Of a stretch of DNA of 64,000 nucleotides, positions 41,015 through 62,916 are shown piece by piece. The number at the start of each line of letters is the position of its first letter. Positions within the stretch are counted from its first letter, which is position 1. The position numbers and the translations under genes were made by a program. The stretch lies in the NCBI GenBank assembly GCA_016789725.1, contig JAEUQN010000001.1, positions 1-64,000 of the forward strand. The letters are read 5' to 3'. The stretch comes from Blastocatellia bacterium (GTDB lineage Bacteria > Acidobacteriota > Blastocatellia > RBC074). Under the pieces are notes generated by a model, which saw only the letters and a program-made list of their open reading frames with translations, was not told the origin of the DNA and ran no database searches.

Positions 41015-41036
41015 GAAGTTGATCTCCTGTCTGGGG

Positions 41037-41067
41037 GAGGGCGACGCGCTTGTACAACGCCGCCCTC
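41037..41067 (-). repeat. stem-loop between the beta-barrel gene and the 1274-residue gene
   Basis: GAGGGCG/CGCCCTC arms of 7 bp with 17 bases between lie in the 63-base gap between the two genes. It may set relative expression or mRNA stability; no T-run follows. Confidence 0.4.
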
Positions 41068-41077
41068 GCAGGCGTAA

Positions 41078-44000: not shown

Positions 44001-46798
44001 CATTGGTCGAACGCTTCGATCACGACATCTATGGTTTGCCGTCCGCCTGCACGCAACACTGTCGCGCTCGGATGAAGGGACAATTTCTCACTTGGCCCCC
44101 GGCCATAGAGACTCAACATCTCCACTGCTTTTTCAGCACCATCCGGCCCCACCGAAATCACTTTCACGCTGTTTGGGCCAGGATTCAGGTTCACTCCATT
44201 GAAGTAGTAGCTGGAGAAGCCAACCTTCGGATCGGTCAATTTCCGACCGATTTGATTGTCGCCGACCTCTTTGCCATTCACTTCCAGTTTGACGCTGTGG
44301 CCTTGTGCGACCCGCGCTTCCAAACTCAAGGCACGATCCATCACGACTTCCCCGGATTTGTAACGCGGAAGCACGATCTGGTTTTCGTTGATGCGTTCGA
44401 TTTGCGCTGCGCTTTCGGCAAACTCCGGTTGCACCGCTGCATCCAACTCCCGACCAGATGCCTTGTCTGCTTCGTCGTGAATCTTCTGCGTCGCACGCTC
44501 GCGCAACTTCTTCATCCGACAATCGAACTCTTTCTCGTCCTCGCAAGGCCGCCGCGCGATATGGGCCGTTTCGATTTCCTTCGGCTGCCAGCCTGACGGA
44601 ACCAGCGCGAAGTTCTGCCGCATAATGCCGCCTCCCAAAAGCGGACGTTGCACCAGCCTCGTCCATGAATGCTGATATTTGAGGTTTTCATCAATCAACA
44701 TTGCGCCTTGCGGCACCGACAACGGATCAAGAATCAACACGATGCTGCCTGCATCCAACATCGGCAGGTTGTATTGCCCATTCGCATCGGTCACGACGGC
44801 GGTGCCGTTGGCGGTGTAGATGCGTGCGCCCGCTACGGGGCGGTCGGCCTCCTTGTCATAGAACCCATTCTTATTGAGGTCTTCAAACACGCGCCCAATG
44901 ATCGCCTGCTTGTCTGAAAAGATGCCGCCTTGCACTTGCACTGAGGCACGCGCTGTCGGCGATTTTGCGACTTCCCCTGTCGGGAATTTTCCTTCCGCAG
45001 TGGCGAGGTTCTCCGACTGACCTTGATGCGCTGATGGGCCGACGATCACGCGATATTGCAGCGTTACTGTTTCGTGCGCGGCAAGCATTCCGACCGGAAT
45101 CGTGCTGACACCACCAACCGAAGTGAGGTTCACATTCGTGACCGTTTGTCCGCGCAGCAATTGGACTTTGTTTTCCGCCAAGCGGAAGCCGCCAGGCAAC
45201 TTGTCCACCACTATTGCGTCACTCACTGGCGCGTTTGTCCGATTCGTGACCGCCACGTTGTAGCTGACAATATCGCCAACCACCGCAAAGGCTTTATCTA
45301 CCGTTTTGCGGATTTCCAAGGTTTGCGTTTCAAACATTGGAAGGTTGAATGTTAAGACTGACAAGCTCGGCAACAATACATCGCCGTTCGTGAGTGTAAA
45401 ACCACCGCTGACCGCCAGCGATTGTCCATCGGATGAATGCAGTGTTGCCGTAAACAAACCATCGCCCGTCGGGACAATAGTGACTTGAATCGTGCGCGAG
45501 GCATAGCCATTCGCCTGGCTCGTGACGTAGTACGCGGCTGGCACGCCAACCGCTCCTAGTTGTGACGGTGCAGGCACGAAGTTGAAGGCACCGCTGGCGC
45601 TGGTGGTTAACGTCGGTGTGTTGGCCTGGTTCGGCGCATAACCACTATTGCTCGGAATGTTCAGTGGATCACTACCCGCCGGATCAGTCGCAAGCGTGAC
45701 CACCGCTCCGCTAATCGGCACACTGCCGCCCGCCCGTCCTGCAAACACAATCCCTACTGGATTCTGAATCACCGTGTTCGGATTCGTGGTGGTTTGCGGG
45801 AAGTTTGTGCCAGAGAAAATGCCGCGATTGATTAATCCCGTGCCGGCAGGAATCCCCTCGCCAAGTTTGGCTTTGAACTCAATCTTGACTGTGGCACCAA
45901 TCGCAATAGAGGCCCATTTGGCCTGTACGCGCGCGCCGTTGGCGTCGCCATTGTCCGCATCAACGGCATCCGTTAAGGCAACACCATCCACTTTGAGTGT
46001 GTTGGCAACATATGTCACGCCATTCGGTAAATCGTCTACGAACGTGACGTTCAGCGCCTCGCTTCCGCCACTGTTTTTGAACGTGATGTAGTACCAAAAT
46101 TCCTGCCCCGTTGCGACCGTCATTTGTGTCTTCCCGCTCAACGGATCGCTCAGGCTGGTTTCACTGGAAGTTTTGACCGGCGGCTTTTGTGGATCGCGCG
46201 GGTCGGAGAACTTCGGGCCTTCATTCATCCCATACAGCCGCTGCCCGGCGTCCGTAGTATTCCCATTGACGCCGGGTGTTACGGTGGTCGCGGTTAAGTT
46301 GATCGCGGTAGTCGTCCCAGCCTGCGCGTTGCCCGTATTGAAGGATACGATCACTGGAACGCATTGACCGGGTTGTAGTGTGGGAGTTTCCGTTGTGCCA
46401 ATCACCACCGGCACGTCGCCCGCGTCCACAACGCCGTTGGCGTTCAAATCGTAATAGAGGTTTTGAAGGGTCGCGGGCGCGCCGATCTTGGCGTCCGTCA
46501 CGTGGACAGTGTTAGCGACGTTGCCGCTGTTGCAGATCGCAAAGGTTCGATATTGATTTTCCAGTGGGCCAAAGTTGATCGGCGGCGTCGTTTCATCTGG
46601 TGTCACCTGGACACCTGCAATCGCCGCGACAATAACTTTGACTGGCTCACTGACTGTGTTGATGGTGGCTCCGCTCGGATCGGTATAGCTGGCGGAGGCT
46701 TGATTGATGATCTCGGTGCCACTACCTGGGACTTGTGCCCAGAGCGTCGTGCTAAAGAGCAACGCACACAGCAGCAGAATGAGGGATCGTTTGGTCAT
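41078..46798 (-). CDS. outer-membrane beta-barrel protein with DUF11 and SdrD-like modules (1906 residues)
   Basis: Start ATG 46798 follows TTAGGAGAAGC. The signal peptide is LILLLCALLFSTTLWAQ. The N-terminal module (GTEIINQASASYTDPSG...VQVTPDET) is shared with the 761- and 678-residue genes. DUF11-like modules and an SdrD/Cna-B-like module (GRVFEDLNKNGFYDKEADRP) follow, then a central linker. The last 750 or so residues are a long run of alternating strands (YARSDEGYF, GYIDEQNK, LSLQVSREQ, YDMTSFDRG) like an outer-membrane barrel. It may anchor or export the smaller proteins of the operon; the family is not named. Confidence 0.75.
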   Translation of the reverse strand: MTKRSLILLLCALLFSTTLWAQVPGSGTEIINQASASYTDPSGATINTVSEPVKVIVAAIAGVQVTPDETTPPINFGPLENQYRTFAICNSGNVANTVHVTDAKIGAPATLQNLYYDLNANGVVDAGDVPVVIGTTETPTLQPGQCVPVIVSFNTGNAQAGTTTAINLTATTVTPGVNGNTTDAGQRLYGMNEGPKFSDPRDPQKPPVKTSSETSLSDPLSGKTQMTVATGQEFWYYITFKNSGGSEALNVTFVDDLPNGVTYVANTLKVDGVALTDAVDADNGDANGARVQAKWASIAIGATVKIEFKAKLGEGIPAGTGLINRGIFSGTNFPQTTTNPNTVIQNPVGIVFAGRAGGSVPISGAVVTLATDPAGSDPLNIPSNSGYAPNQANTPTLTTSASGAFNFVPAPSQLGAVGVPAAYYVTSQANGYASRTIQVTIVPTGDGLFTATLHSSDGQSLAVSGGFTLTNGDVLLPSLSVLTFNLPMFETQTLEIRKTVDKAFAVVGDIVSYNVAVTNRTNAPVSDAIVVDKLPGGFRLAENKVQLLRGQTVTNVNLTSVGGVSTIPVGMLAAHETVTLQYRVIVGPSAHQGQSENLATAEGKFPTGEVAKSPTARASVQVQGGIFSDKQAIIGRVFEDLNKNGFYDKEADRPVAGARIYTANGTAVVTDANGQYNLPMLDAGSIVLILDPLSVPQGAMLIDENLKYQHSWTRLVQRPLLGGGIMRQNFALVPSGWQPKEIETAHIARRPCEDEKEFDCRMKKLRERATQKIHDEADKASGRELDAAVQPEFAESAAQIERINENQIVLPRYKSGEVVMDRALSLEARVAQGHSVKLEVNGKEVGDNQIGRKLTDPKVGFSSYYFNGVNLNPGPNSVKVISVGPDGAEKAVEMLSLYGRGPSEKLSLHPSATVLRAGGRQTIDVVIEAFDQWGNPAADNDILVLKASAGSLQRLGAAPSRHRQLMAQDLTRSNGLSVEQTPETENQVKLEMLGGLALVQYIAPQQAGLVKFFASNGTLHAESQIQIDPEIRPTLMVGVGKVSVGAAAPEHQLSGDKEKVTGRGQFFLKAPLGNQTTFTGSYDTSRPLNRLLNQNQLFQQNPQDRMYPIFGDSSTRFQEVQSNSKLYFKLEHGQQYAMFGDFRLLGNEVGNYQPSSFQGVGLGSSVRIGTTANTLSNFAGFGASNLAGPQLSLYERSLTGGKIHIEANKQTYLTVAGARPQTQFARDVFPGNILGYAKLSASGLLPNTEQVFLEYRDRRSPEVVQKTEALVRGIDYQIDYLTGVLYLQRSLQAFTSALDLVQVVTIYEFADGGNSSNVYAGRAQWGWKGLNVGGTYIDQLQRGFGAYQISGVDLHKALFNSGNISAEWSRTSGQVAAAGNYFGLASGFHRGNAYRAEWHQPLGKMFVANALYARSDEGYFNPFGGTTTPGTKRFQAVLTANITANDEFTMGYIDEQNKTVNVDNGRKTLDAEWSHQFGKKFRANLGYAMRELTTNSVNSTTTTNSQMVKAGVEYNPTEKLSLQVSREQNLVQGKDQTYPDQWLVGAKYKLNNFTNLFFTQRLGSAAILPIADLSSTGFAASNSRKEMSFGVETKFFRNTNFVSRYQIEQGINGTDSFAVLGVNQKFQASKTLSLDAGVEKGFHTAGQQDGFVSGSLAAAWMPTEDFKTSLRYELRNRLGFGQILSAGAAGRMTENLTSLGNFQLSKTNFQNIESQIMQGRAAFAYRPAESDRVAWLLSYDMTSFDRGRLPGGAGRGLNFSLNQETVHQVTTDGLYKPFHNGKVELFGRAAFRQVSSEGPSLNRISTDTYLFQGRIQDRFSHYFDAAVEGRWLGQVGWNQRRTALGVELGFWPLEDVRLGFGYNRSALDARFAYTGPIRSGFYFTITTKLANIFNLFGTSHQGIEPK

Positions 46799-46877
46799 TG
46801 CTTCTCCTAAAATATGAAGACGGATGGCTCTGGCAGGGCGAGGAACCCCCAAGGCAAAGCCAGATTGAGATGAGGGA

Positions 46878-46926
46878 GCAACCGGACGAGCATTCACGGG
46901 TCAGTGGCTCCAACTCGTCCGGTTGC
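46878..46926 (-). repeat. 13-bp perfect inverted repeat in the operon
   Basis: GCAACCGGACGAG and CTCGTCCGGTTGC form a perfect 13-bp stem with a 23-base loop between the 678-residue and 1906-residue genes. It could be an mRNA stabiliser or attenuator; the flanking run of T that an intrinsic terminator needs is absent. Confidence 0.5.
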
Positions 46927-46969
46927 ATCTGCACGGATGGCTCCTCAGTTCACCCGTACATTGCGGCAC

Positions 46970-49006
46970 CTACTGCTTAATCTTCCGCTTGAAGGCGAAC
47001 GTTCCTGACTGGCCTGGAGCTAGTGTTGGAACCGTGTCCGTCAAAACGGATGACCCAGTCGTGTCGCCGGTAATCGTGCCGCCATTGGTGTCGGTGGCAG
47101 AGGCCGCGACGTGATCGGTCGTGTTGCCCCAATTGTTCGGCGCAGCATTGCCGTTCTCCGTGATGACTATATTGGTCACATTGAGCGTGACGGAGTTCGT
47201 TCCACCGCTCACAGCAATGTTCGTGTAGGTGATTTGGTAGGTGATTTGTGCGCCCGGCACGGCATCGGTTGGCCCGCCTAAGCCTGTAGTGTTTGCGACC
47301 ACCGCTGTTTTGACGAGTTTCAGATACCCCGTGTACAGGCGATCTATCGTGTTGTTACTGAGGGTCGGGTCGGTGACTGAGGTGGCCTTGATGACGGTGT
47401 CATAGCCTGCCACGGCGGGAATCCCGGCAGGAGCGGTTACACGCACCTGGTAGTTCATGGCCGCAGCGGGTGCCAAGGTTGCAGTCGTGACACTGCTACC
47501 GCCCGAAACGGTTGTCCAGGTTGTGCCGCTATCCAAACTGATCTCCACCGTGAACCCGGCAGGAACCGTGGGCGTCGTCAAGACGAACTTGTCATTGCCA
47601 TTCCCACTGTTCTGCAAAGTGTTGGTGAAAATGACGGTGGCTGGAGCTGTCGTGTTTTCCCCTGGTGCCACGCCACTCAAACCAGTCGTGGATGATTTAT
47701 TGGTAAAGTCATCGTTCGTTCCCGTCGGACCAGTTGCGTCCGCATGGCCGGAGGTTCCATTGAGAACGCCTGCGGTAATGACAACGGCAGTAATCTGCGG
47801 AACGCCTGTTCCTGCGGTGCCGCCGAGCGGAACGCTGGAACCATTGCCATTCCCCTTGTTTGGGGTCGCGTCGCCCGATTGATCCGTGATCAGATTGCCC
47901 AGACCACTCGTCCCAAACGTGTCGGCAATAAACACAATGCTGTTGCCCGCCGGGGCGCTGGGAAGTAAAGTGACCGTGAAGGGAATGTTGGCACTGCACG
48001 CCCCTGCCGCTAAGGAGTTGCCCACTGGAAAGGCCAGCCGAGTAATGCTCGTCAGCGCGGGTTGTGTCGTGGCCCACGTTGCCATCGTCGGCGCAGTTGT
48101 CAACGGGTCGGCGCTGTACAGGGTACCAACCGGAAAGCTCTGACCGGCTGTCAACTGCGTGAACTGTGGGATCGGTGCCACAATAAATACCGAGGAATTC
48201 GCGCCCGCTGGTGCGCCCGGTAAGGTCATCGCTGTCACTGGACGATCTGCCGGATTACAGGATTGCACGGTATAGGGAATCGTGCTGCCAGGGGATATTG
48301 GCCCCGCCGGAACAATCGCCGTAAGCTGCAATTGCGAATCCTTCACAATCGCACCTGTGTAACTGCCGACGGCTTCGTGAATCCCATTCACGGCTGTTGC
48401 ATCAGAAGTTTTCACTCCACCCGCCGAACCATCATCCACCACGTCATCACTCGCGCTGTCACCCAATTTCGTGGTGTATGTACCCGGTGTCGCCGCAGCA
48501 TTCGCTTGTACTTCCACCAGCACCTTGATTGAACTGCCTTGCGCGACAGCGGCGGAATTGACTGTTGCGGCATTCGTGAGAATGTCTGGCTCGCCCGGAT
48601 CAATCACACCGTTGTTGTTGAGGTCAATCACCGCGCGCAGAATGGTGACCGGGCCGGTCGTGGTTTCGCCAGCCCCGTTGACCGGGAAGGTGAACGGCAT
48701 ACTGGTATTGCCAGTGTTCGTCATCGTGAAGGGCAGGGTGGCCTTCTCGTTTGGAACGAGGGATGGGGCTGTGGCTCCATCTGGGGTAATTACGATCCCG
48801 CTTACTACGGCAATGGTGACTGTGACTGTGTTGGATTGATTGCTGTGGGAATTCCCCGCCGGGTCACTGTAGGTGTATTTCGCTGTATTCGAAATCACCG
48901 TGCCGCCAGCGGCGTGAGATTGTCCGAGGACTCCGCCCGCTGCCAACGCGAGTAGGGCTGTCGCCAGGACTGAGCGCAGAATGGGAAACTTTTTTTTGGC
49001 TTTCAT
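46970..49006 (-). CDS. secreted DUF11-like protein (678 residues)
   Basis: Signal peptide SVLATALLALAAGGVLGQSHA. The N-terminal module (GTVISNTAKYTYSDPAGN...VITPDGA) matches the same module in the neighbouring proteins, followed by beta-sandwich modules and the shared C-terminal part (APNNWGNTTDHV...GTFAFKRKIKQ). Likely a surface or assembly subunit that partners the 761-residue paralogue; no enzyme motif is seen. Confidence 0.75.
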   Translation of the reverse strand: MKAKKKFPILRSVLATALLALAAGGVLGQSHAAGGTVISNTAKYTYSDPAGNSHSNQSNTVTVTIAVVSGIVITPDGATAPSLVPNEKATLPFTMTNTGNTSMPFTFPVNGAGETTTGPVTILRAVIDLNNNGVIDPGEPDILTNAATVNSAAVAQGSSIKVLVEVQANAAATPGTYTTKLGDSASDDVVDDGSAGGVKTSDATAVNGIHEAVGSYTGAIVKDSQLQLTAIVPAGPISPGSTIPYTVQSCNPADRPVTAMTLPGAPAGANSSVFIVAPIPQFTQLTAGQSFPVGTLYSADPLTTAPTMATWATTQPALTSITRLAFPVGNSLAAGACSANIPFTVTLLPSAPAGNSIVFIADTFGTSGLGNLITDQSGDATPNKGNGNGSSVPLGGTAGTGVPQITAVVITAGVLNGTSGHADATGPTGTNDDFTNKSSTTGLSGVAPGENTTAPATVIFTNTLQNSGNGNDKFVLTTPTVPAGFTVEISLDSGTTWTTVSGGSSVTTATLAPAAAMNYQVRVTAPAGIPAVAGYDTVIKATSVTDPTLSNNTIDRLYTGYLKLVKTAVVANTTGLGGPTDAVPGAQITYQITYTNIAVSGGTNSVTLNVTNIVITENGNAAPNNWGNTTDHVAASATDTNGGTITGDTTGSSVLTDTVPTLAPGQSGTFAFKRKIKQ

Positions 49007-49023
49007 CTGCTACGACTCCTTTC

Positions 49024-51309
49024 TTATTTGACCGTCCGACGGAAACGACACGTCGCTTGTCCGCCTGATGGGAGGCCGCTGGTTAAGTTGAAGGTGAGAT
49101 TGGTGCTACCTGCGCTGTCGCCTGTGACCGTGAAAGGCACGCTGCACGTTGCGCTGCCGACCACTTGATTCGTCAGGTTGCCCCAATTGTTGGGCGCGGC
49201 AGTGCCATCTTCGGTGATAGCAATGCCGGTAGATGTGAGCGAGTAGCGTTTGGCATCCCAGGGGAACGTGCCGCTGGTGCCATTGCTGCCTTGTCCAGTA
49301 ATGGTTAAGACATACTCGATTTCCGCTCCAGGAACGGCATCTGTCGCGGCCCCCACTCCAGTGGTGTTCGTCACCGTTGCGGCCTTCACGACTTTGAGGC
49401 TGTCGCCGACGAGTGTGTCGCCAGTGGATTCAAAGGTTTCGTTCTTTGGACAAGTGCCACTGACGCCGATGCCATTGAAGACGCGGGCGGTAGTGGTTCG
49501 TGTGTAGCTCGGAAAGATCGGCGTGTTTGTGCCAGCAAAATACCAGCCCGCGTAGATGTTCAGGCTGAGCGTATTATGACCCGTGCCGAACCGCGCCGCC
49601 GGAACCGTGTAGCGCAGCAGAAAATCCACGGCTTGTCCTGGATTCAATGTAATCCCGTTCATCGGTACGTTGAGCGGGTCAACGCTGTGGATTTGAGAGG
49701 TGAGAATACTGGTGGCGGAATTGAGTCCGGCGAAGGACTTCAGCAGTTTCCAGGTCGCGCCGCCATCGAAAGAAACTTCTGCCGTAATGTCCGGCGCATT
49801 ATCAAACAACACGCCTGCTGTCGCTCCGGTATAGGGCGTGTAGGTGGAATAGCCGGTGTCAAGTTCCTTATGTCCCTGGATCAACCCAAAACTCAGCGGC
49901 AGACTGCCGTAGTTCGTAATGCGCTTGGGCGAGACGAACACGTAATTTCCGGTGATCGTGTTGAATGCAGGTGTCGGCCACAACGTACCGTCATAGTGTT
50001 CACAGTTTGAGGTGTAGGACTCCGCCTGCGTCGAAGCCGCATTGGAGGCTGGCCCCATGTACATATTTGGAGAGCCAGCAACAGCAGTTTGCTGTTGTAC
50101 GCCGTTCCCATCCGAAGAACCAATCGCAGGGCCTTCATCAAAGTTGGCGTTGCCGTCCCCTTTATTCGGCACGGTGTCGCCGCTCTGATCCGTAATTGGA
50201 TTGTTCAAGGTATTCGTGGCAAAGACATCCACGATCTCACTGATGTTTGGTACCGTCGCTGGATTGAGACCCGGATTGATCGTCACCACTAAGGGAAAGC
50301 TCGCCGTGCATGCGCCTGCCGCTAGACTGCTGCCCGCTGGAAACGCCATGCGCGTGACCGATGAAATCGGCGACGGGACAGTGGTTGTCCAAGTCGCTGC
50401 CATCGGCGCGGTGGCCAAGGGGGAGGTGCTGTAGAGCGTATTGGAGGGGAAGGATTGGCCTGCTTTGAGACTGGTGTTCGTCGGAATTGGCGCGATCAAG
50501 AATACGGCGCTGTTGCTACCGCCCGGCGCGCCCGGTAGCGTGATCGCGTTCGCCGTCCGCTCGCCGCTATTGCACGCCTGTAGGTTGTAGCTGATGTCAC
50601 TGCCGGGCGTCACGGGTCCTGCCGGAGCCGTCAAGGTAATCGCAATCTCTGCATCTTTATCCACCGTGGTGGTGTAACTACCCGTGGCTTCCAAAATGCC
50701 ATTGACTGCTGATGCGTCGGTGGTCTTGACTTCGTTGGCGCTGTTATTCGTTGCTACACTGTCCGTCGCGCTGTCGCCTAACTTGACCGTGATCGCAGAA
50801 TTATCTGCCGCCGTCGGATTGACGGTAATCTCTGCCAGCACTTTCAAACTGCCATTCTGCACCAACGGCGCGCAGTTGACGGCTGCCGCATTCGTCAGAA
50901 TGTCGGTGTCAGTGGGATCAATGATTCCGTTGCCATTCGCATCAATCACCAATTTGGTAATCGTGGCCGGGCCGACAACCGAGGCGCTGCTTCCGCTCGC
51001 TCCAAAGGTGACGGGCTGGGTAAAGTTACCGGTATTGGTGACGGCGAAGGCTTGCACTGTCACTTGTCCCGGAACCAGGTTCGGCAAGACCGAATTGTCT
51101 GGGGTAATGACCAGCCCAGCGACATTCGCCACCGCGATCACGACTTCGTTTGATAGTGTGCTATAGCTTGTGCCGCTGCCGTCGCCATACGTGGCGCTGG
51201 CCGTGTTCTTGATTTGCGTACCGCCTGGGGTGGCCTGTCCCAGTGCGAGTGAGGTGAGGAACACTGCACTCAGCAGTAACCCGCACATCAGGCGAGAAAG
51301 TTGATTCAT
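49024..51309 (-). CDS. secreted DUF11-like protein (761 residues)
   Basis: Signal peptide MCGLLLSAVFLTSLALGQA. The N-terminal module (GTQIKNTASATYGDGSG...LVITPDNS) and the end (APNNWGNLTNQV...ATCRFRRTVK) parallel those of the 678-residue protein, which begins 17 bases after it ends. An insertion of about 160 residues with Tyr/Trp-rich sequence (ESYTSNCEHYDGTLWP) distinguishes it. The two genes are paralogues. Confidence 0.75.
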   Translation of the reverse strand: MNQLSRLMCGLLLSAVFLTSLALGQATPGGTQIKNTASATYGDGSGTSYSTLSNEVVIAVANVAGLVITPDNSVLPNLVPGQVTVQAFAVTNTGNFTQPVTFGASGSSASVVGPATITKLVIDANGNGIIDPTDTDILTNAAAVNCAPLVQNGSLKVLAEITVNPTAADNSAITVKLGDSATDSVATNNSANEVKTTDASAVNGILEATGSYTTTVDKDAEIAITLTAPAGPVTPGSDISYNLQACNSGERTANAITLPGAPGGSNSAVFLIAPIPTNTSLKAGQSFPSNTLYSTSPLATAPMAATWTTTVPSPISSVTRMAFPAGSSLAAGACTASFPLVVTINPGLNPATVPNISEIVDVFATNTLNNPITDQSGDTVPNKGDGNANFDEGPAIGSSDGNGVQQQTAVAGSPNMYMGPASNAASTQAESYTSNCEHYDGTLWPTPAFNTITGNYVFVSPKRITNYGSLPLSFGLIQGHKELDTGYSTYTPYTGATAGVLFDNAPDITAEVSFDGGATWKLLKSFAGLNSATSILTSQIHSVDPLNVPMNGITLNPGQAVDFLLRYTVPAARFGTGHNTLSLNIYAGWYFAGTNTPIFPSYTRTTTARVFNGIGVSGTCPKNETFESTGDTLVGDSLKVVKAATVTNTTGVGAATDAVPGAEIEYVLTITGQGSNGTSGTFPWDAKRYSLTSTGIAITEDGTAAPNNWGNLTNQVVGSATCSVPFTVTGDSAGSTNLTFNLTSGLPSGGQATCRFRRTVK

Positions 51310-51349
51310 ACTGCAAACTCCTTATGAGGATGGTTGTTGAGGAAGCTAA

Positions 51350-51384
51350 AGGCGGGTTGGACATTTGCGTTCCGTGACCCGCCT
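51350..51384 (-). repeat. stem-loop after the first DUF11 operon gene
   Basis: AGGCGGGT/ACCCGCCT arms of 8 bp lie in the 80-base gap between the 156- and 761-residue genes. Like the two other stem-loops in this operon it stands at a gene junction. Confidence 0.4.
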
Positions 51385-51389
51385 CTTTG

Positions 51390-51860
51390 CTACTTGATGC
51401 GAACTTGGTAATTGGCCGTCGTTTGGCCGGTGGGGAGGGTGGAATAAGTAAAGCGGAGATTTGTATAAAGACTCACGGGGGCTTCCACCAAGTGATCCTG
51501 ACCGTCTGGTCCGCGTTGCCGGATCATCGGACGCGCGGCCCAGGTCATCCCGCCGTCCAGCGAGAATTCCAGGCTGGCCTGCGCTGACGCCGACCCAGCA
51601 ACATATTCCGTCTTCTTATCCACCGGCAGAGTGGCGACAAAGTTCTTGACTGCGCTATCGGTATCGTTGACGGCAGTGAGGCTCCAAGTGATCGTTTCAC
51701 CCGGCTTCCCTTCCACACGGTCGGAGGCGAGCGTTTCCCCGCCTCGCGTTACCCAGCCTTTCAGCAGGAGATTAACTTTGTTTTGTGCGGTGTTGGCGAG
51801 GGCCAGTGTGGCAGTAAGCGTGAGTAGGCACACGAAGGCCATGAGGAGACGAGCTTTCAT
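51390..51860 (-). CDS. small secreted DUF11-like protein (156 residues)
   Basis: A signal peptide (LLMAFVCLLTLTATLALA) is followed by one DUF11-like module (KPGETITWSLTAVNDTDSAVKNFVATLP) that ends in YQVRIK, the same kind of Arg/Lys-Ile-Lys ending as in the larger proteins. It is the first gene of the operon and could be a minor or tip subunit, or a chaperone-like cap for the assembly; this is inference. Confidence 0.7.
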   Translation of the reverse strand: MKARLLMAFVCLLTLTATLALANTAQNKVNLLLKGWVTRGGETLASDRVEGKPGETITWSLTAVNDTDSAVKNFVATLPVDKKTEYVAGSASAQASLEFSLDGGMTWAARPMIRQRGPDGQDHLVEAPVSLYTNLRFTYSTLPTGQTTANYQVRIK

Positions 51861-52490: not shown

Positions 52491-52713
52491 GTTTCCTGTT
52501 CGGTTGTTAACGCCAACCTGACAGGGTAGATCAATCTTGTAACTTTAGCCCAATACAACAGCCTGGTAAGCTGTTGGTAGAATGATCTGTTGGTAGTGTA
52601 TGAGAAACCTTTGCTTTCGTCAAAAGGTTTCACCTACCATTTGCTCAGCCTATCTGATCTTCTGCATACAACTTGCCTGTCTGTCCTCTCATTTTGGTGA
52701 TCTTGGAGATTGT

Positions 52714-55101
52714 ATGAATTCCTATGGTGGTTACGACTTGGATGACAACCCTCTGGTGCAGGCGATTGGGAAGTTGCATCTCACTGGAAACCTGGTGGCG
52801 CGTTCCTGGTTTCACTATTTGCGGAAACCCACCGGCAAACCTGACCTGCTCGCCATTATGTTGTTAGCTGAGATCGTCTATTGGTACCGTCCAATCCAGG
52901 GAACGGATCATGAAACTGGCTTGCCCCTGCCCTGGCGCAAGAAATTCAAAGAACAATTGTTGCGCGTGGATTATCAGAAGCTGGCGGATCGGTTTGGATT
53001 CTCTTATGACCAGGTGCAACGAGCAATCACTTTTCTGCGCAACAAAGGACTTCTTCATATCCGACTGCGCGCCCATGCCAATGGCACTTACGTCTACCTT
53101 GAACTGATCGTAGAACGAGTCGAGCAAATTAGTGTCGTTCCGCAAGGCGTGACGGAAGAAACGGTCTGGGAAGAGTTTTCTGCGGGCGGGATTGAGCGAG
53201 TAGATGTTGCTGTGGCGCTTGACTTTACTCAGCGCCCAGCAACGCACCAGACCCACCCGGCAAATTTGCAAGGTCCCCCCACCTCGCAAATTTGCAAGGT
53301 CGGTACCCACCCGGCAAATCTGCGACGTCGCCACCCCGCAAATTTGCCGGGTCATAAGGAAGATAAGATTTCTGGTATTACAAAGATTTCTAAAACAACA
53401 GAAATCCCCCCTACCCCCCTTGCAGAAACCGACAACCAGACGGATGGAGTTGTTGTTGAGGAAAATTTAGGAGAAGTTGTTGCCCCGAAAGTATTCCCCC
53501 TTACTGATCCTGTAGATGCGGAATTGCTTAGCGGACAAGGCCGAATCACAAGCGAAAATTTCCTACTGGCTGTTCAAACCCAAGGCGCGCTAGCCCTTCA
53601 GCCCATGTTTGAGGAATTGCCCTTCGAGATGAAAACCGACTCTGCGGCGCTGGAGGAGATGTCAGGGATGGATGGGGATGAACTTTCTCCCGTCAAAGCT
53701 CCTTCCAATCGCACCGTCCGACTCGCCCATCAAAACCAACAACTACCCACCATCCTTCCGGCAGCAGTGCAGGCGCTTGTCGAGTGGACGATTGGCACGA
53801 TTGGCTGCTCGGCTTCCCAAAGGGAAATTCAAACCCTCCTCGAACTGTGTCGTGATGAGAAATATTCCTTCGCGGAACTGACCGCCTGCTATCTCGCCCA
53901 CAAAGCGCCTGGAAGTCGGTGGAATCGTCCTTCATGGCAGTCGGTCAAAAGCGATATTGCTCGCTTTGCAAGTCTCTATCGCGCCGTCGCTGACGCCACG
54001 ACCAAACTGCCCGATCTGTCCGTTCTTGTGAATGCGCTCGGTTGGGAATGGGCCAAATTGGCGCTGGCGGATCAACATGCTTGGGCCGTCGCCGTCCAGC
54101 AATTTGGGTGGGATTCTGCTCAGGCGTCCGTATTTCTTGCTCACTTCCACCAAACCTTGAAAGGCCAAAAGGGATTCGCGCCGACTGTGGCCGATTTATG
54201 CGATCACTGGCAACGTGCGCTGGCAACCCAAACGACAACCGCTAGACTGACCGACGTGCAGCAATCCCTAGTGGCGCAACTCGAAGCCCACGGCATCAAG
54301 CCTGCACAGGCCGTTGAATTGGTCTTGCAGGATGAAACGGAGGTTGGCACTCAACTTGCTGCTCTTCCCTATCGGGATCGCGACGCGATTGAGAGCCTTT
54401 CGGGCTGGCTCATCAAAGCAATTCGCCACCGCTACAGTGTTCCATCGAGTCTCACAACCTATCTCGCCCGTATGGAAGCAAACCAGGAGGCCGAACGCTT
54501 GAAACGAGAACAGGAAGCGCAACAAGAAGCGCACTGGCTCGCTAACCGGGCGGGCTATTTTGCTTACCTTGAACAATGCGCTTTGCTCTTGCAGCTACAA
54601 AATCCATGCGATTGGACGGCATTTCAAGCGACAAATCCCACTGGAACAATGGCTGATCATTGGGGCGAGTTTTGGAAGTTTTTCGATTTGCGCCCTCAAG
54701 TCGCTTTGCAAGTACTCCATTTTCTCGAATGGGATCAGGTTGTCATGGTAGGCGAAGACCCGATCCGTTATCGCCAAGTGACCACTCCGGCTCCCGTGCT
54801 TGCTTCTCAATCAGTTGCTCTAGTAAAAGATTGGCATCCCCAGCAAGAGCCAAGTCAGGAAGCTTATTACAGCTATGTTCGGGAACGAGTTGATACGATG
54901 CAGACTGCTCACCCTGTCGAATACGCTGCATTCATTGCGGATTCCGCAAAGCAGCGCGACTGCATCAAAACCTTCAAGCGGATGGTCGAGGCTTTTGATG
55001 AACCCAAGGGGCAGTGGGATCGCTTCGTGCAATATTTTCAAACCTTGCCATTATCCGTTCCAGTGTTGACGTGGACGCAATGGAGGGAGGCGTGCGGATA
55101 A
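52714..55101 (+). CDS. replication-protein-like HTH protein containing its own iterons
   Basis: The 795-residue protein starts at ATG 52714 with GGAG upstream. Residues 1-140 resemble phage/plasmid replication organisers with a winged helix (YQKLADRFGFSYDQVQRAITFLRNKGLLHIRLR). The part around residues 180-230 is a low-complexity linker (HPANLQG, HPANLRR, HPANLPG) encoded by iteron-like DNA. The C-terminal half is helical (AQALVEWTIGTIGCSASQREIQTLLELC). No helicase or primase motif is seen. It lies in front of a sigma-54 activator and the RepA-type gene. Confidence 0.65.
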   Translation: MNSYGGYDLDDNPLVQAIGKLHLTGNLVARSWFHYLRKPTGKPDLLAIMLLAEIVYWYRPIQGTDHETGLPLPWRKKFKEQLLRVDYQKLADRFGFSYDQVQRAITFLRNKGLLHIRLRAHANGTYVYLELIVERVEQISVVPQGVTEETVWEEFSAGGIERVDVAVALDFTQRPATHQTHPANLQGPPTSQICKVGTHPANLRRRHPANLPGHKEDKISGITKISKTTEIPPTPLAETDNQTDGVVVEENLGEVVAPKVFPLTDPVDAELLSGQGRITSENFLLAVQTQGALALQPMFEELPFEMKTDSAALEEMSGMDGDELSPVKAPSNRTVRLAHQNQQLPTILPAAVQALVEWTIGTIGCSASQREIQTLLELCRDEKYSFAELTACYLAHKAPGSRWNRPSWQSVKSDIARFASLYRAVADATTKLPDLSVLVNALGWEWAKLALADQHAWAVAVQQFGWDSAQASVFLAHFHQTLKGQKGFAPTVADLCDHWQRALATQTTTARLTDVQQSLVAQLEAHGIKPAQAVELVLQDETEVGTQLAALPYRDRDAIESLSGWLIKAIRHRYSVPSSLTTYLARMEANQEAERLKREQEAQQEAHWLANRAGYFAYLEQCALLLQLQNPCDWTAFQATNPTGTMADHWGEFWKFFDLRPQVALQVLHFLEWDQVVMVGEDPIRYRQVTTPAPVLASQSVALVKDWHPQQEPSQEAYYSYVRERVDTMQTAHPVEYAAFIADSAKQRDCIKTFKRMVEAFDEPKGQWDRFVQYFQTLPLSVPVLTWTQWREACG
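53260..53391 (+). other. candidate intragenic replication origin (four palindromic iterons plus AT-rich stretch)
   Basis: GCAAATTTGC lies at 53260, 53286 and 53338, and GCAAATCTGC at 53314, each in a similar CCCACC...GGTC context. Centre spacings of 26, 28 and 24 are not all multiples of 3, so repeat 2 is read in another frame than the others (TSQICKV against HPANL): the DNA, not the protein, is conserved. An AT-rich segment with AAGATTTCT at 53365 and 53383 follows. Lambda ori has four iterons and an AT-rich region inside gene O in the same arrangement. Confidence 0.55.
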
Positions 55102-55227: not shown

Positions 55228-56553
55228 GTGAACAATCTACATCCTTGTGTTTTATTGGTAACTACTGACACCTGCCAATTGTTTATCCAGCAATATGCAG
55301 GTTCCTTACCGAACCTATCCTTCGCCAGAAGTTTTGGTGTGGAGACCATCACATCCTATCAAAGTTTAGTTGTGGAAGATGCGCTTTGGGATTACGAAGA
55401 AGCACAGCCCTTTCTGGCGCATGGCATTCCGGTATTTGTCGTTTCTCGTAATCCGACGGGATCGCATGCCGTTTTTGAATATCGTCAGGTTGGCGTGCGG
55501 AAATATTTTGGTTTGACAACGAAATCTGATGTCGAAGCCTTTGTCTCGCAACTGAGCATCGAAACGCGCCGTTACCAGCAAGGACTGGTTGCGGCGCAGC
55601 CTCGCTCGCTTGGATCTGCCAAGGAACAGTTGCTGGTGGGAAATAGTCCGGCGATGTTACATCTTGCTGATGAAGTGTTCAGCGTAGCAAAATCAGAGTT
55701 GAGTGTCTTGCTGCTCGGCGAGACGGGCGCTGGCAAGGAAGTCATCGCACGTACGCTGCACAACTTGAGTGGGCGTTCCGGCAAACTGGTGGCCGTTAAT
55801 TGTAGTGCGCTTCCTGCCGAGTTGGCTGAATCGCTCTTGTTTGGTCATGAGAAAGGAGCTTTTACTGGGGCCAACGAACGGAAGGAGGGATATTTTGCGC
55901 AAGCGGAAGGTGGCACCTTGTTTCTCGATGAAGTCTTTGAGTTGCCAGAATTCCTCCAGGCTAAATTATTGCGTGCGCTGCAAGAAGGGACGGTCGTTCC
56001 GGTCGGTGGGAAGGAGAAAAAGGTGCAGGTGCGTGTCATCGGGGCAACGAATAAGAAACCGGAGCAGATGCTACGCGATGGCGGGTTGCGTGAGGATTTC
56101 TTGTACCGGTTCAAAAAACAAATACTCATTCCGTCCTTACGTGAGCGAAGGCAAGATATTCCGCTCTTGGTCGAGTCTTTTTTGAGCGATTGTGGTACGT
56201 CACTACAGATCGGAGCGGATGTAATGCCATTACTGCAAGCCTATTCCTGGCCTGGCAACGTGCGTGAGTTACGAGCTATGGTAGAGGACTGGGCTCACCG
56301 CCTGAATCAAGGTGAGCGCGTTTTGGTGGAGGATCTGCCGCCTGCTTTACGTCCAGCAATAACGCTTTCCCCGGCTGCATCGGCCACTGTTCAGAAAATT
56401 ATCTTGGAATTTAAGGACGAGTTCAGTTTGGAGACTGTTACCAAAGCGTTTATGAAAAAGGTATTGGATGACTGCGGGGGCAATATTTCGGCAGCCGCAC
56501 GCATGTTGAAGATCAGCCGTCAAACGCTCAGCCGCAATCTTTTCTCATACTGA
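55228..56553 (+). CDS. sigma-54-dependent activator with N-terminal receiver-like domain
   Basis: The 441-residue protein starts at GTG 55228 (AGGAAG upstream). The first 130 residues look like a receiver fold, but without a clear phosphoacceptor site. The AAA+ domain has Walker A GETGAGKE, GAFTGA (GAFTGAN) and FREDFLYRF-like elements; a Fis-type HTH (DCGGNISAAARMLKISRQTLSRNLFSY) ends it. Its 3' end overlaps the convergent RepA-type gene by 9 bases. Confidence 0.85.
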   Translation: MNNLHPCVLLVTTDTCQLFIQQYAGSLPNLSFARSFGVETITSYQSLVVEDALWDYEEAQPFLAHGIPVFVVSRNPTGSHAVFEYRQVGVRKYFGLTTKSDVEAFVSQLSIETRRYQQGLVAAQPRSLGSAKEQLLVGNSPAMLHLADEVFSVAKSELSVLLLGETGAGKEVIARTLHNLSGRSGKLVAVNCSALPAELAESLLFGHEKGAFTGANERKEGYFAQAEGGTLFLDEVFELPEFLQAKLLRALQEGTVVPVGGKEKKVQVRVIGATNKKPEQMLRDGGLREDFLYRFKKQILIPSLRERRQDIPLLVESFLSDCGTSLQIGADVMPLLQAYSWPGNVRELRAMVEDWAHRLNQGERVLVEDLPPALRPAITLSPAASATVQKIILEFKDEFSLETVTKAFMKKVLDDCGGNISAAARMLKISRQTLSRNLFSY

Positions 56554-58227
56554 TTGGGATAATTGTTCCCTTGGATGGTCTTCTAAACCTAACTGCTTAC
56601 TGTAAGCAGCGATAATCTCGTCGGCGTGTGGAGCGTTTTTTTCCTGGAACTCCTCGAAGGTCATGAGCGCGGCCTGTGCGCCGAACTCTTTGAAGACACT
56701 CCGATAGGCCGCGCGTTCGATCTCTGCCTCATCCATTGCGGCATATCGTTTGCGCCAATACTTTTTTTTCTCTAGCTGCATCTCCTCAATCTGTGCAGCC
56801 GTATAAGTTGTTCGAACATAAGCTTCAGTCTCGGTTTTCAGGTAATGGTCATACGCATGTTCGAAGGCATGTAAGGCGAACTCTTTCCCCTCACGTTCCA
56901 AATCTTGCGGGGCCACGCGGTATTCACCGACGCGGGAGTTCCCTTGTTTTCTCTCTTTTCCGCCCCCTGCCATTGGAGTCCTATTTTGTCGCACCGAAAG
57001 AATATCCTCGCAATGACGTTCCAACCCATTCATCCAGAGCGGTGAAAAATTATCCTGCGCCGCTTGCGTCAAAGCGGCTGCAATCAATTCCTGGGCCGTC
57101 TCATAGCCAAGATCGAGAATCAGATTTTCGGCCATCGAGATTTCTTTGCGGGACGGATCTCGTCGTACCGAGCCAAAGCGCAAATGAAGAAAGTGCTTTA
57201 CCAACAACTCAGCCTCCCCTGCCCCCGAAGGTAAGGTTTTGCTGTCCGGTAAACTTTCGGGTTCTCGTCGCACGCGATTGAACTCCTGGTACTCCGCGAC
57301 GGCTCGTGGGCCAATCGTGTACCAGATGCGCCAGTCTCGGATGTCATCGCGATCCATCAAAGATTCGTATCGGACCTTCAGGATGTAACTGCTTTGCAAA
57401 TGGGCGCGGTGAATCTTGTACATCTGCTTTTGCATCGGCACGGCATTTTCGTAGCGTTTTTGCCCAGAAGCGAGACAATATTCCGAATAGTCGAGCCAGC
57501 AACTTTCCTGACCATTTCTCAGGGCGGCATACACTTTAAAACTGGCGACTTCATACCAACGTTGGGCCGAAGGTGAAGGAATCGCTTTCAAGTAACTGAA
57601 GTCAAGTGGGCGGACCGGGACTTCATTGAGGAGACCGGCATAGACTTGGCCTGGGATGATGTAGACAGCATCCGCCTCTTGTCCATCGGGTAATTGCTCG
57701 CCGGTGAAAATCACATCATAACGCCGAAATCCCGCCTCCAGACGCTTGGTTTGCCCTTTGTTCGTGGTGTACGTCAACTTGGCGGTAATCATCGCACCAG
57801 CGCATTGGTATAAGGCCTTACGGATTTGCTCATTGAGTGTTCCTGACGGACGGAGCCCCAGTTCCTGGCAAATGGAACGCATCGTGCCGAGTCGTAAAAT
57901 CATGGGCATTGGTCGGCCTGCTTCATCCATGCGTTTGTTGATAATGAGGGTGTCAATCTGATATGCCATGATCCCCGGCATGCCATACTTCAAGGTAGGT
58001 GACACATCCCAAAGCAGGTCTACCTTGCCACTAGGTAAATTTCGTTGGATATGAATCGGCTCTGCTCCTTGTTTGCTTAAGCAGTGCATGGGAAGTTTTG
58101 AGAGAACGCTCTCTACTCGGATGATCTCGCGTACCGTTTGGGCCAAGATTGCCCGTGCGGTTGGTTCCGACCTATCATCAGTCGGCAACAGACTCATCTG
58201 GTGTGATGGGGCTTGTGGTTTTTTCAT
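56545..58227 (-). CDS. plasmid replication initiator (RPA/RepA type)
   Basis: The 560-residue protein starts at ATG 58227 with a strong AGGAGG. The region VDLLWDVSPTLKYGMPGIMA and GTLNEQIRKALYQCAGAMIT matches the replication initiator protein A family (PF10134), whose winged-helix domains bind iterons. Ten iterons lie directly upstream of it (58354-58753). The gene ends convergent with the sigma-54 activator. The C-terminal 200 residues are basic and helical (EKKKYWRKRYAAMDEAEIERAAYRS). Confidence 0.75.
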   Translation of the reverse strand: MKKPQAPSHQMSLLPTDDRSEPTARAILAQTVREIIRVESVLSKLPMHCLSKQGAEPIHIQRNLPSGKVDLLWDVSPTLKYGMPGIMAYQIDTLIINKRMDEAGRPMPMILRLGTMRSICQELGLRPSGTLNEQIRKALYQCAGAMITAKLTYTTNKGQTKRLEAGFRRYDVIFTGEQLPDGQEADAVYIIPGQVYAGLLNEVPVRPLDFSYLKAIPSPSAQRWYEVASFKVYAALRNGQESCWLDYSEYCLASGQKRYENAVPMQKQMYKIHRAHLQSSYILKVRYESLMDRDDIRDWRIWYTIGPRAVAEYQEFNRVRREPESLPDSKTLPSGAGEAELLVKHFLHLRFGSVRRDPSRKEISMAENLILDLGYETAQELIAAALTQAAQDNFSPLWMNGLERHCEDILSVRQNRTPMAGGGKERKQGNSRVGEYRVAPQDLEREGKEFALHAFEHAYDHYLKTETEAYVRTTYTAAQIEEMQLEKKKYWRKRYAAMDEAEIERAAYRSVFKEFGAQAALMTFEEFQEKNAPHADEIIAAYSKQLGLEDHPREQLSQSV

Positions 58228-58353
58228 GATGCCTCCTGTAACTGACCACACGCGCACATTATGTAGTGTGTCTTTATTTGTCTAGTAGTGTATTTAAGTC
58301 TAATAAGTGGGGGCATAGTAAGAGCTTATAAAACAATAAGTTAAGTGCTGTAA

Positions 58354-58753
58354 TTTCTCCCAAATATTCACCTTATTTCTCTCAATAGTTCACAGTGCTT
58401 CTCCTTATAGTTCACTTTCTTTCTCCTGAAAGTTCACACGTTTTCTCCTAAAAGTTCATGTCATTTCTCCCGATAGTTCACCGCATTTCTCCTAAAAGTT
58501 CACATGTGATTTTCTTGTGGAAATCTCTTCATCCCGTACTTTAACTCCCTTTAGCAGAAATGGCTGTTGTACGGTAAATGATTGACACGACTAGATATTG
58601 TGGTAAGACGTGAGTCTTGGCACTAAGAAGAAGATCGAAACCGGTCTATTTCTCCCAAAAGTTCACCTGCGAGGGAAGGAAAATAACGGTTTCTCCTAAA
58701 AGTTCACCGCTGAATATATCGAACAATTGCCTCTGCTTCTCCCGAAAGTTCAC
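58354..58753 (+). repeat. origin iterons: seven in a 22-bp phased array and three more
   Basis: Units of 18 bp with consensus TTTCTCCYRAAAGTTCAC start at 58354, 58376, 58398, 58420, 58442, 58464 and 58486, an exact 22-bp period (two helical turns). Three more start at 58649, 58690 and 58736; the last overlaps the recombinase stop. The stretch between repA and the array (58290-58353) and the gap between clusters are AT-rich. This is the layout of an iteron-controlled plasmid origin. A CRISPR array was excluded because the 4-bp gaps are not spacers. Confidence 0.85.
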
Positions 58754-60872: not shown

Positions 60873-61751
60873 TCACTTCTCTAGTTGCGTCAGTAACAAT
60901 TTAAGCTCTTCTGCTGATGTGTATGTTACTTTGACGAACCCTTGATTTTGATCACCTTTTACAGTGGTTTTTAGGTTCAATCGTTTCTTTATTCGTGCAG
61001 CAGTGGTTGGCCCAAAATTGCCGTCTTTCTGCGCTCCGATTTTGTCTGTTTTCTGGCGTGATTGGTTGTTAAGTATTGCCTGAACTGCTTCACGAAGCGC
61101 GTCATTGGAAGGAAAAGTACGGGAGGCGAGTTGATTGAAAATCACTCTTGTGGTGAAAACATCAGGGTTTTTTCTGAGCATGCTGCGCACATCAGCCGGA
61201 TATTTACTGATGGCTAGATACTTCCGAACTGTCCTGCCTTGCCGGTCAAATCGCTCGCTGATCATCTGCTCTGTTATCCCTGCTTTGAGAAGCCGTTGGT
61301 AGCCTTCTGCAATGTCAATTGCTGGGAGGTCTTGCCGCGTCAGATTTTCTGTCAACCCATCAATTACACGTTCTCCATCATTGGCATACTGCTTTATCAA
61401 GGCGGGAACTTTTACAACTCCCGCTATGCGGGCTGCAAGTAAGCGGCGTTGCCCGGCAATGCAGATCAGCCGATATTTGTCATCGTTGATCTGTAATTCA
61501 ATGATGAGGTTTTGTAGTACCCCCTTATTTTCTTGGATTGAACTAACCAGCTCCAGGAAGGAATCGGCTTCGGTGTCAATTGATTGTCTGACATTATCTT
61601 CAATAAGTATTTCTTCAATCGGAAGCAGCACTACTTTGCCGATCGCTGCTTGCAGTCTCTCAAGTTTCTCCCGGTTAGCATCTGGAGTGTGTAGATCGCG
61701 CAGGAACCCTTCTTTTCGTTTTTGCGATTGTGCTGCAATTTTTGATGCCAT
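60873..61751 (-). CDS. parB: ParB chromosome/plasmid partition protein
   Basis: The 292-residue protein (start at 61751) has the ParB CTP-binding elements AGQRRLLAARIAG (99-111; GQRR in place of the usual GERR) and ENLTRQDLPAIDIAEGYQRLL (135-), and a central HTH (ITEQMISERFDRQGRTVRKYLAI). It binds parS as a clamp and is downstream of parA with parS copies on both sides of the pair. Confidence 0.88.
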   Translation of the reverse strand: MASKIAAQSQKRKEGFLRDLHTPDANREKLERLQAAIGKVVLLPIEEILIEDNVRQSIDTEADSFLELVSSIQENKGVLQNLIIELQINDDKYRLICIAGQRRLLAARIAGVVKVPALIKQYANDGERVIDGLTENLTRQDLPAIDIAEGYQRLLKAGITEQMISERFDRQGRTVRKYLAISKYPADVRSMLRKNPDVFTTRVIFNQLASRTFPSNDALREAVQAILNNQSRQKTDKIGAQKDGNFGPTTAARIKKRLNLKTTVKGDQNQGFVKVTYTSAEELKLLLTQLEK

Positions 61752-61781
61752 ATATCTGGTCTCGTTTTCGTAGAATTCTAT

Positions 61782-61805
61782 AAGGTGACAACGCGTTGTC
61801 ACCTT
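61782..61805. promoter_or_regulatory. parS-like site 1, just upstream of parB
   Basis: A perfect 24-bp palindrome with core TGACAACGCGTTGTCA, lying 30 bases before the parB start. Such sites are ParB loading points and can also act as operators. Confidence 0.8.
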
Positions 61806-61884
61806 CTGGCTTGTGACTCATCTTATGGATGAGGGACGAAGGGCAGGTGCTAATGAGATTGCGACCATAATCGGAGTTCTTACC

Positions 61885-61908
61885 AAAGTGACAACGCGTT
61901 GTCACTTT
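61885..61908. promoter_or_regulatory. parS-like site 2, overlapping the parA stop codon
   Basis: A perfect 24-bp palindrome with the same 16-bp core as site 1. It lies in the short parA-parB gap and reaches into the parA stop. Confidence 0.8.
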
Positions 61909-62794
61909 ATATCTCGTCAATTACTTCGATGGCGGAAGCATGCGCAGCTTGTGCTAGCGACTTCGTATTAGGAGTTGGAATCCGCCCCACGCGACGCCCT
62001 TTCAGCGCCGGCAGGATTTCTCCGGCCAGCATACTGTAGGAAGTGGCTATGGTTGAATTGGGTTGATAATCCAGTAAGGGGAGACAGGCGGATTCGGCAG
62101 CCTGTACGTGATTGGAAATGGGAATATTGTTCTCAAATACATGGAAATTCGCCGAGGCTGCAATCTCACGGATGATTTTTTCATAGTTTCGATGCGTCGC
62201 ATTCCGTTTATCAAATTTGGTGATGACGCAGCCTAAAATGGTAAGCGACGAATTGGAATATTTGCGTACTTCTTCCGCTAATTCGACCATTTCCAGTAGC
62301 CCGCGCGAGGAGCTTGGTTCAGGAAATACGGGGATTAAATAATAGTGAGTCATGTTGAGTGCTGAGGCGAGTAGACAATCTCGACTAGGATGGGTGTCAA
62401 CCAATATGACTTGGTATTGGTGTAGCGCTTTCGTCTCGAAAACAAATTTTAGTAATTTGTCATTAGTAAATGACCCTGTCTTCTCTTTTACGATTTGTTG
62501 TAAATCAGATGTCCCAGCCAGCAGGTCAACATTGTTGGTATTTGAAGAAAGCGCCACCGCCTCCAGCGGTAGCTCATTCCTGATGGCATAAGCCAAGCTT
62601 TTCCCTGTTTGTTTGGCAGCGTCTCTTCCTCCCAGTATCTCAGTTGCCGATCCTTGCGGGTCCATATCTACAACTAATACACGCTTTCCAGTATGAGCGA
62701 AGGCGGCTGCAAGATTTACCGTGGTGGTGGTTTTGCTCGTTCCGCCTTTTAAATTTGCTAGAGTGCAGATGCTGGTCTTGTGATTATCACTCAT
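61907..62794 (-). CDS. parA: ParA partition ATPase
   Basis: The 295-residue protein (start at 62794) has the deviant Walker A KGGTSKTT (16-23) and VLVVDMDPQGSATEIL, and LVDTHPSRD as the Walker B-like strand. No N-terminal HTH is present, so it is of the shorter ParA type. Together with parB and the parS sites it partitions the replicon. Confidence 0.92.
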   Translation of the reverse strand: MSDNHKTSICTLANLKGGTSKTTTTVNLAAAFAHTGKRVLVVDMDPQGSATEILGGRDAAKQTGKSLAYAIRNELPLEAVALSSNTNNVDLLAGTSDLQQIVKEKTGSFTNDKLLKFVFETKALHQYQVILVDTHPSRDCLLASALNMTHYYLIPVFPEPSSSRGLLEMVELAEEVRKYSNSSLTILGCVITKFDKRNATHRNYEKIIREIAASANFHVFENNIPISNHVQAAESACLPLLDYQPNSTIATSYSMLAGEILPALKGRRVGRIPTPNTKSLAQAAHASAIEVIDEI

Positions 62795-62916
62795 AATTAT
62801 TTGAGGGTTTGTCAAAGTTTGTGTAATGGTATCCCGTTTCTGAATCAGAGTTAGGGTGAAATCGGGAATAAGGTAAAATATGATTTATTCGTTGTCAATT
62901 GAAGATAGCGGCTTTT

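Follow-up and report, generated by a model that had tools for sequence, protein, structure and literature searches.

A probable lambda-type replication origin inside a phage-type initiator gene, with an AT-rich motif that recurs across initiator genes

Several phage and plasmid replication genes carry their own origin. In gene O of phage lambda (J02459), four annotated iterons in codon phases 0, 2, 2, and 1 separate the region encoding the DNA-binding domain from that encoding the C-terminal part of the protein, and an AT-rich stretch lies on their 3' side. In phage SPP1, gp38 binds direct repeats in its own gene, and oriL lies within gene 38 and adjoins an AT-rich unwinding element (PMC6316719). 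Plasmid pSK41, of the RepA_N type, presents four Rep boxes located centrally in rep, whose product has a winged-helix N-terminal domain, and the swapped segment of ~500 bp in pPR9, which combines a phage-type DNA-binding domain with an origin, supports autonomous replication (PMC5703833). Finally, plasmid Rep proteins bind one strand of the AT-rich region (PMC4081077).

We analyzed a candidate gene of this type in a 64,000-nt stretch of DNA from a Blastocatellia bacterium (hereafter the window). Its product is very likely a theta-replication initiator of the phage type (O-like), and the interdomain linker very likely contains the gene's own origin, i.e., an in-gene origin of the lambda type. 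This kind of layout is already known, but its setting is new. The reading frame is open from 52600 to 55101 on the forward strand and contains an ATG at 52714. Because GGAG stands just upstream of this ATG and homology begins there, 52714 is probably the start codon rather than 52600. The resulting gene (52714-55101) encodes 795 aa. The protein matched PHROG_270 "replication initiation" (E=1.8e-6 for the whole protein and 8.2e-7 for the domain) and PHROG_391 "O-like" in profile searches, and tblastn related it to initiators of phages and plasmids. The original prediction of an origin inside a replication gene thus agrees with the PHROG_270 match, the iterons, and the AT-rich stretch, with replication itself proposed by analogy.

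A winged-helix DNA-binding domain was predicted at the N-terminus (52750-53140, forward strand; aa ~13-142) from an alignment of relatives (alignment A2) and from AlphaFold2, with a recognition helix corresponding approximately to FSYDQVQRAITFL. The AlphaFold2 model of this domain has a mean pLDDT of 83, with most of the core above 90 and a low-confidence tail at the start of the linker. Its top viral fold match was the DnaD-type protein of Bacillus phage PM1 (E=1.1e-11); the fold search of the PDB returned generic winged helices and ranked B. subtilis DnaD very low. For the C-terminal half, we found no plasmid match and no significant match among the C-termini of the relatives, and no helicase-loader gene adjoins the initiator gene. 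Directly 3' of the gene lies a sigma-54-type AAA+ regulator (55228-56553), an unusual neighbor for a replication gene. The leader of the initiator gene contains a 15-nt inverted repeat with a 10-nt loop (52598-52637), which is possibly a copy-control or attenuation element.

The linker contains four palindromes at 53260, 53286, 53314, and 53338. These are the positions originally proposed, although the palindrome is not identical in all of them: three copies read GCAAATTTGC and the copy at 53314 reads GCAAATCTGC, with one mismatch. On the forward strand, the corresponding iterons are CACCCGGCAAATTTGCAAGGTC (53254-53275), CACCTCGCAAATTTGCAAGGTC (53280-53301), CACCCGGCAAATCTGCGACGTC (53308-53329), and CACCCCGCAAATTTGCCGGGTC (53332-53353). 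The repeated unit exceeds the palindrome, since 33 bp can be aligned around the core CACCYSGCAAATYTGCNNSGTC, and the spacing of 26, 28, and 24 bp is looser than the 22-23 bp usual among the relatives described below. The 17-mer SGCAAATTTGCNNGGTC is found in three exact copies at the iterons; the rest of the 7.77 Mb genome contains a single further copy and no second cluster. Relative to the ATG at 52714, the palindromes are in codon phases 0, 2, 0, and 0, and the second repeat is therefore in a different reading frame, as had been noted.

These repeats might reflect selection on repeated linker peptides (PANL) rather than on DNA, which we consider extremely improbable. Indeed, three of the four copies encode A-N-L (PANL) in one phase, but the second, in the other phase, encodes S-Q-I-C. 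When we redrew the synonymous codons of the linker while keeping the peptide fixed, including the repeated PANL peptides, 10 of 5000 redraws reached four copies of any perfect 10-bp palindrome. This probability (P ~0.002, and not lower) is only suggestive for one gene because the PANL peptide is itself repeated. The evidence of this single gene against chance is therefore not overwhelming, and it is the homologues that supply strong evidence.

The relatives were identified from alignment A2, composed of the window's winged helix and 30 relatives sharing 31-39% identity. PHROG_270 was matched by all 31 members and PHROG_391 by 28 of them, and HTH_36 was the most common Pfam match. Based on tblastn, the initiator gene precedes a DnaB-type helicase gene in Acinetobacter prophages and a plasmid; it is followed by G39P-type loader and DnaB genes in Geobacillus phage PT9.1 and by a DnaC-like ATPase gene in phage SpaA1. 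Other relatives were found on plasmids of Protochlamydia, Nostoc, Deinococcus, and Megaera. Scanning the genomes and viral contigs with the window domain alone yielded no match and the family alignment was needed: it recovered relatives in both bacterial genomes (244) and viral contigs (219), and 80 from each set were taken further. A profile search detected the domain in all 173 loci examined (81 non-redundant). No close relative of the window gene was found in 98 close genomes or in 396 genomes of the phylum.

The relatives share a common anatomy: a winged helix, palindromes spaced 22-23 bp apart in rotating frames, and then an AT-rich motif, TACAGAGATTACTACA. For instance, PT9.1 presents four copies of TGACGTTNNAACGTCA at 22-bp intervals, three other relatives (L126, L149, and L176) each present four copies of TTACTTNNAAGTAA at 23-bp intervals, and a Lachnospiraceae gene carries TAGCAAATTTGCTA, a palindrome almost the same as that of the window (L018). 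We scored the linker palindromes of 79 non-redundant genes, requiring a score of at least 3 that was reached by no more than 1 in 100 synonymous-codon shuffles. A total of 24 genes passed, and only 3 of 132 control segments of the same genes reached a score of 3. The number of passing genes is a lower bound, since the scan demands even-centered palindromes; it missed, for example, a Nostoc gene with four repeats at 22-bp intervals (L010). Out-of-frame repeats in homologous genes, which were proposed as a check of the original prediction, were indeed found: in 23 of the 24 passing genes, the palindrome copies are distributed over at least two frames, mostly with a spacing of 22-23 bp. That the iterons of the relatives are maintained at this spacing through a rotation of all frames argues against selection on the peptide.

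The palindromes differ between relatives and appear to track the recognition helix. The distance between recognition helices correlated with that between iterons once the remainder of the domain was taken into account (partial r 0.27), and this value was reached in none of 2000 permutations, although the correlation may partly result from shared ancestry. The combination of a winged-helix protein with palindromes is typically found in repressors, and several relatives bear the annotation of a GntR-type regulator. It could be argued on these grounds that the palindromes of the window are operators, bound by the winged-helix protein or by its sigma-54-type neighbor and controlling the gene's own transcription without any origin function. 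We regard this as rather improbable: the palindromes lie ~550 bp inside the gene, where no promoter-like match was found, and those of the relatives occupy the same linker, precede the shared AT-rich motif, and in some cases stand beside DnaB-type helicases or loaders. Moreover, the origins of lambda and pSK41 are built in the same way.

An in-gene origin is further suggested by the sequence that follows the iterons. The presumed unwinding element (53360-53407, forward strand; 48 bp) has the lowest G+C content of the gene (27% against 53% for the whole gene) and falls within the lowest 0.14% of the window. It contains AAGATTTCT at 53365 and 53383, in line with the AT-rich stretch and its two repeats originally noted after the iterons. 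It also contains a match to the conserved AT-rich motif at 53379-53394 on the forward strand (TACAAAGATTTCTAAA, against the consensus TACAGAGATTACTACA). Using a PSSM trained without the window gene, the best score of the gene (20.6) was obtained at 53379, just behind the palindromes, with the next place scoring -0.6; none of 200 randomized genes reached 20.6.

Across the relatives, TACAGAGATTACTACA was found directly behind the iterons with at most three mismatches in 54 of 80 genes and in none of 19 control segments. Codon choice within the motif is far from the usage of the same genes, with a GAG:GAA ratio of 66:4 compared to 278:596 in the rest of their sequences. A few relatives carry the motif in another reading phase (3 of 54, plus the first copy in L111), which argues for a constraint at the DNA level. 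The exact 20-mer TACAGAGATTACTACAGAGA was found in at least 120 viral stretches, and all 81 occurrences read in viral contigs share one phase; part of the conservation of the motif may therefore be due to the peptide TEITTE. Overall, the frame-rotating iterons and the skewed codons of the motif bear out the selection on DNA initially proposed, and we reject both chance and peptide-only explanations of the repeats. Sequence comparison shows the anatomy of these genes, its conservation across relatives, a constraint on the DNA itself, and a statistical link between helix and iterons.

The motif extends beyond genes with this winged helix, which accounts for 37 of the 81 exact 20-mers read. Ten representative genes with the 20-mer were scanned and all were O-like or DnaD-like initiators belonging to several PHROGs; one matched this winged helix weakly (L209) and the other nine lacked it. 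This raises the possibility, which we advance tentatively and at somewhat less than even chances, that the AT-rich element provides a common code for origin opening, in which a short motif close to TACAGAGATTACTACAGAGA is kept at the DNA level in O-like and DnaD-like initiator genes of several families and bacterial phyla while the adjoining iterons change freely. Such a shared motif beside freely changing iterons suggests one common reader, e.g., a single-strand contact common to these origins or the machinery that loads the helicase. Among the papers listed by searches of the open-access literature, none was relevant to the motif or its peptide. This motif, common to several initiator families and recurring in many distantly related phage replication genes, is the newest part of our results.

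The motif can also locate in-gene origins blind. Searching the window's own genome revealed a tandem motif pair on another contig (C144), within a second O-like initiator gene (L316:4062-5207, minus strand; PHROG_9773, 5.6e-33). This gene presents five TCTTACCGTAAACAGA-like iterons spaced by 24, 23, 23, and 23 bp in all three frames, which stand right before the AT-rich motif. An HNH-endonuclease-like stretch is located between its winged helix and its iterons. The motif deserves follow-up and can serve to annotate origins in phages and plasmids from metagenomes. Its constancy beside variable iterons also makes the question of what reads the melting zone directly testable.

The contig carrying the window gene is 242 kb long, with no end overlap that would indicate a circular molecule. 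It encodes a type IV coupling protein (PF02534, 8e-32), ParA, ParB, and a tyrosine recombinase. Around the parB and parA genes (60873-62815, minus strand), the 16-bp palindrome TGACAACGCGTTGTCA occurs without mismatch at four places (61786, 61889, 62919, and 63053), which are probably parS sites. A second, unrelated replication-protein candidate (Rep-like; 56545-58257, minus strand) has relatives on planctomycete plasmids. Upstream of it is a candidate conventional origin (58354-58753, forward strand) with ten 22-bp iterons TTTCTCCYRAAAGTTCAC, seven of them in tandem, ~5 kb from the in-gene origin. Between about 62 kb and 136 kb, the GC skew increases, which is consistent with an origin in 46-64 kb but does not discriminate between the two candidates. 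The genome's one DnaB match is on another contig. Searches for Rfam families and tRNA gave no match. Beside the replication region, a run of large secreted-looking repeat proteins (37190-51860) shows a higher G+C content (55-57%).

This context suggests a two-replicon conjugative plasmid. Because a conventional 22-bp-iteron origin lies 5 kb away, the in-gene origin is probably one of two replicons on this conjugative-plasmid-like contig, and the window gene may constitute a silent or accessory replicon. It is also conceivable, if unlikely, that the gene is a decayed or captured phage replication gene whose anatomy is real, the plasmid using only the iteron origin at 58.3 kb and its Rep. A complete conventional origin is indeed present nearby, and in staphylococcal plasmids that carry two initiators, one is sometimes inactivated (PMC5703833). 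However, all 795 codons remain in an uninterrupted frame, the iterons barely differ from one another, and the AT-rich motif stays near its consensus in the part where decay would appear first.

Assuming that the in-gene origin is functional, a mechanism can be proposed by analogy with lambda (PMC7466680), SPP1 (PMC6316719), pSK41/pPR9 (PMC5703833), and plasmid Rep proteins (PMC4081077), from which binding, melting, helicase loading, and replication are all extrapolated. The winged helix, probably as dimers, would bind the four GCAAATTTGC palindromes, and the bound dimers would wrap the DNA and assemble an O-some-like complex. This complex would melt the adjacent AT-rich stretch (53360-53407), whose conserved motif would serve as an unwinding and single-strand loading element. 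The host DnaB helicase might then be brought in by the divergent C-terminal half or by host loaders. The winged helix and its cognate iterons would move as one unit, carried in the gene. Together with the melting zone, they may form a single portable unit across the phages and plasmids of numerous phyla, which defines a testable class.

The parallel with lambda gene O and its origin, described as close in the original prediction, holds for the four in-gene iterons in different phases and the AT-rich stretch on their 3' side (PMC7466680) but not for membership of the lambda O Pfam family. Indeed, the window protein had no match to PF04492 (Phage_rep_O) at E<=0.1, whereas lambda O matched it at 5.7e-36, and comparing the profile of the window family with lambda O gave no match. 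The window protein belongs instead to PHROG_270, related to but distinct from lambda O's family. The two genes also differ in their iteron sequences and in length (299 aa for lambda O and 795 aa for the window protein), and lambda has a P-type loader, whereas the downstream neighbor of the window gene is a sigma-54-type AAA+ regulator in a plasmid-like context. We claim no motif identity with lambda, since the fixed consensus aligned to its AT-rich stretch with 5 of 16 mismatches, a value also reached elsewhere in O. The PHROG_270/PHROG_391 initiators of the Acinetobacter prophages, PT9.1, and SpaA1 share with the window a homologous winged helix, in-gene palindromes, and the same AT-rich motif, the iterons and motif being a feature found here across PHROG_270 and lying outside its published definition. 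In contrast to the window gene, these phage initiators have a spacing of 22-23 bp and other palindromes. Their C-terminal parts are also shorter, and the neighboring gene often encodes a loader or helicase. The resemblance to SPP1 gp38 and oriL lies in the layout of the in-gene origin, as compared with its published description (PMC6316719). Relative to pSK41 and the RepA_N family, the window protein had no match to PF06970 at E<=0.1 and its C-terminal half is unrelated to anything found, but both present origin boxes inside the rep gene, a winged-helix N-terminus, and a plasmid context. Finally, pPR9 carries a phage-type HTH_36 domain together with its origin (PMC5703833), and HTH_36 is also frequent in the alignment of the window's relatives.
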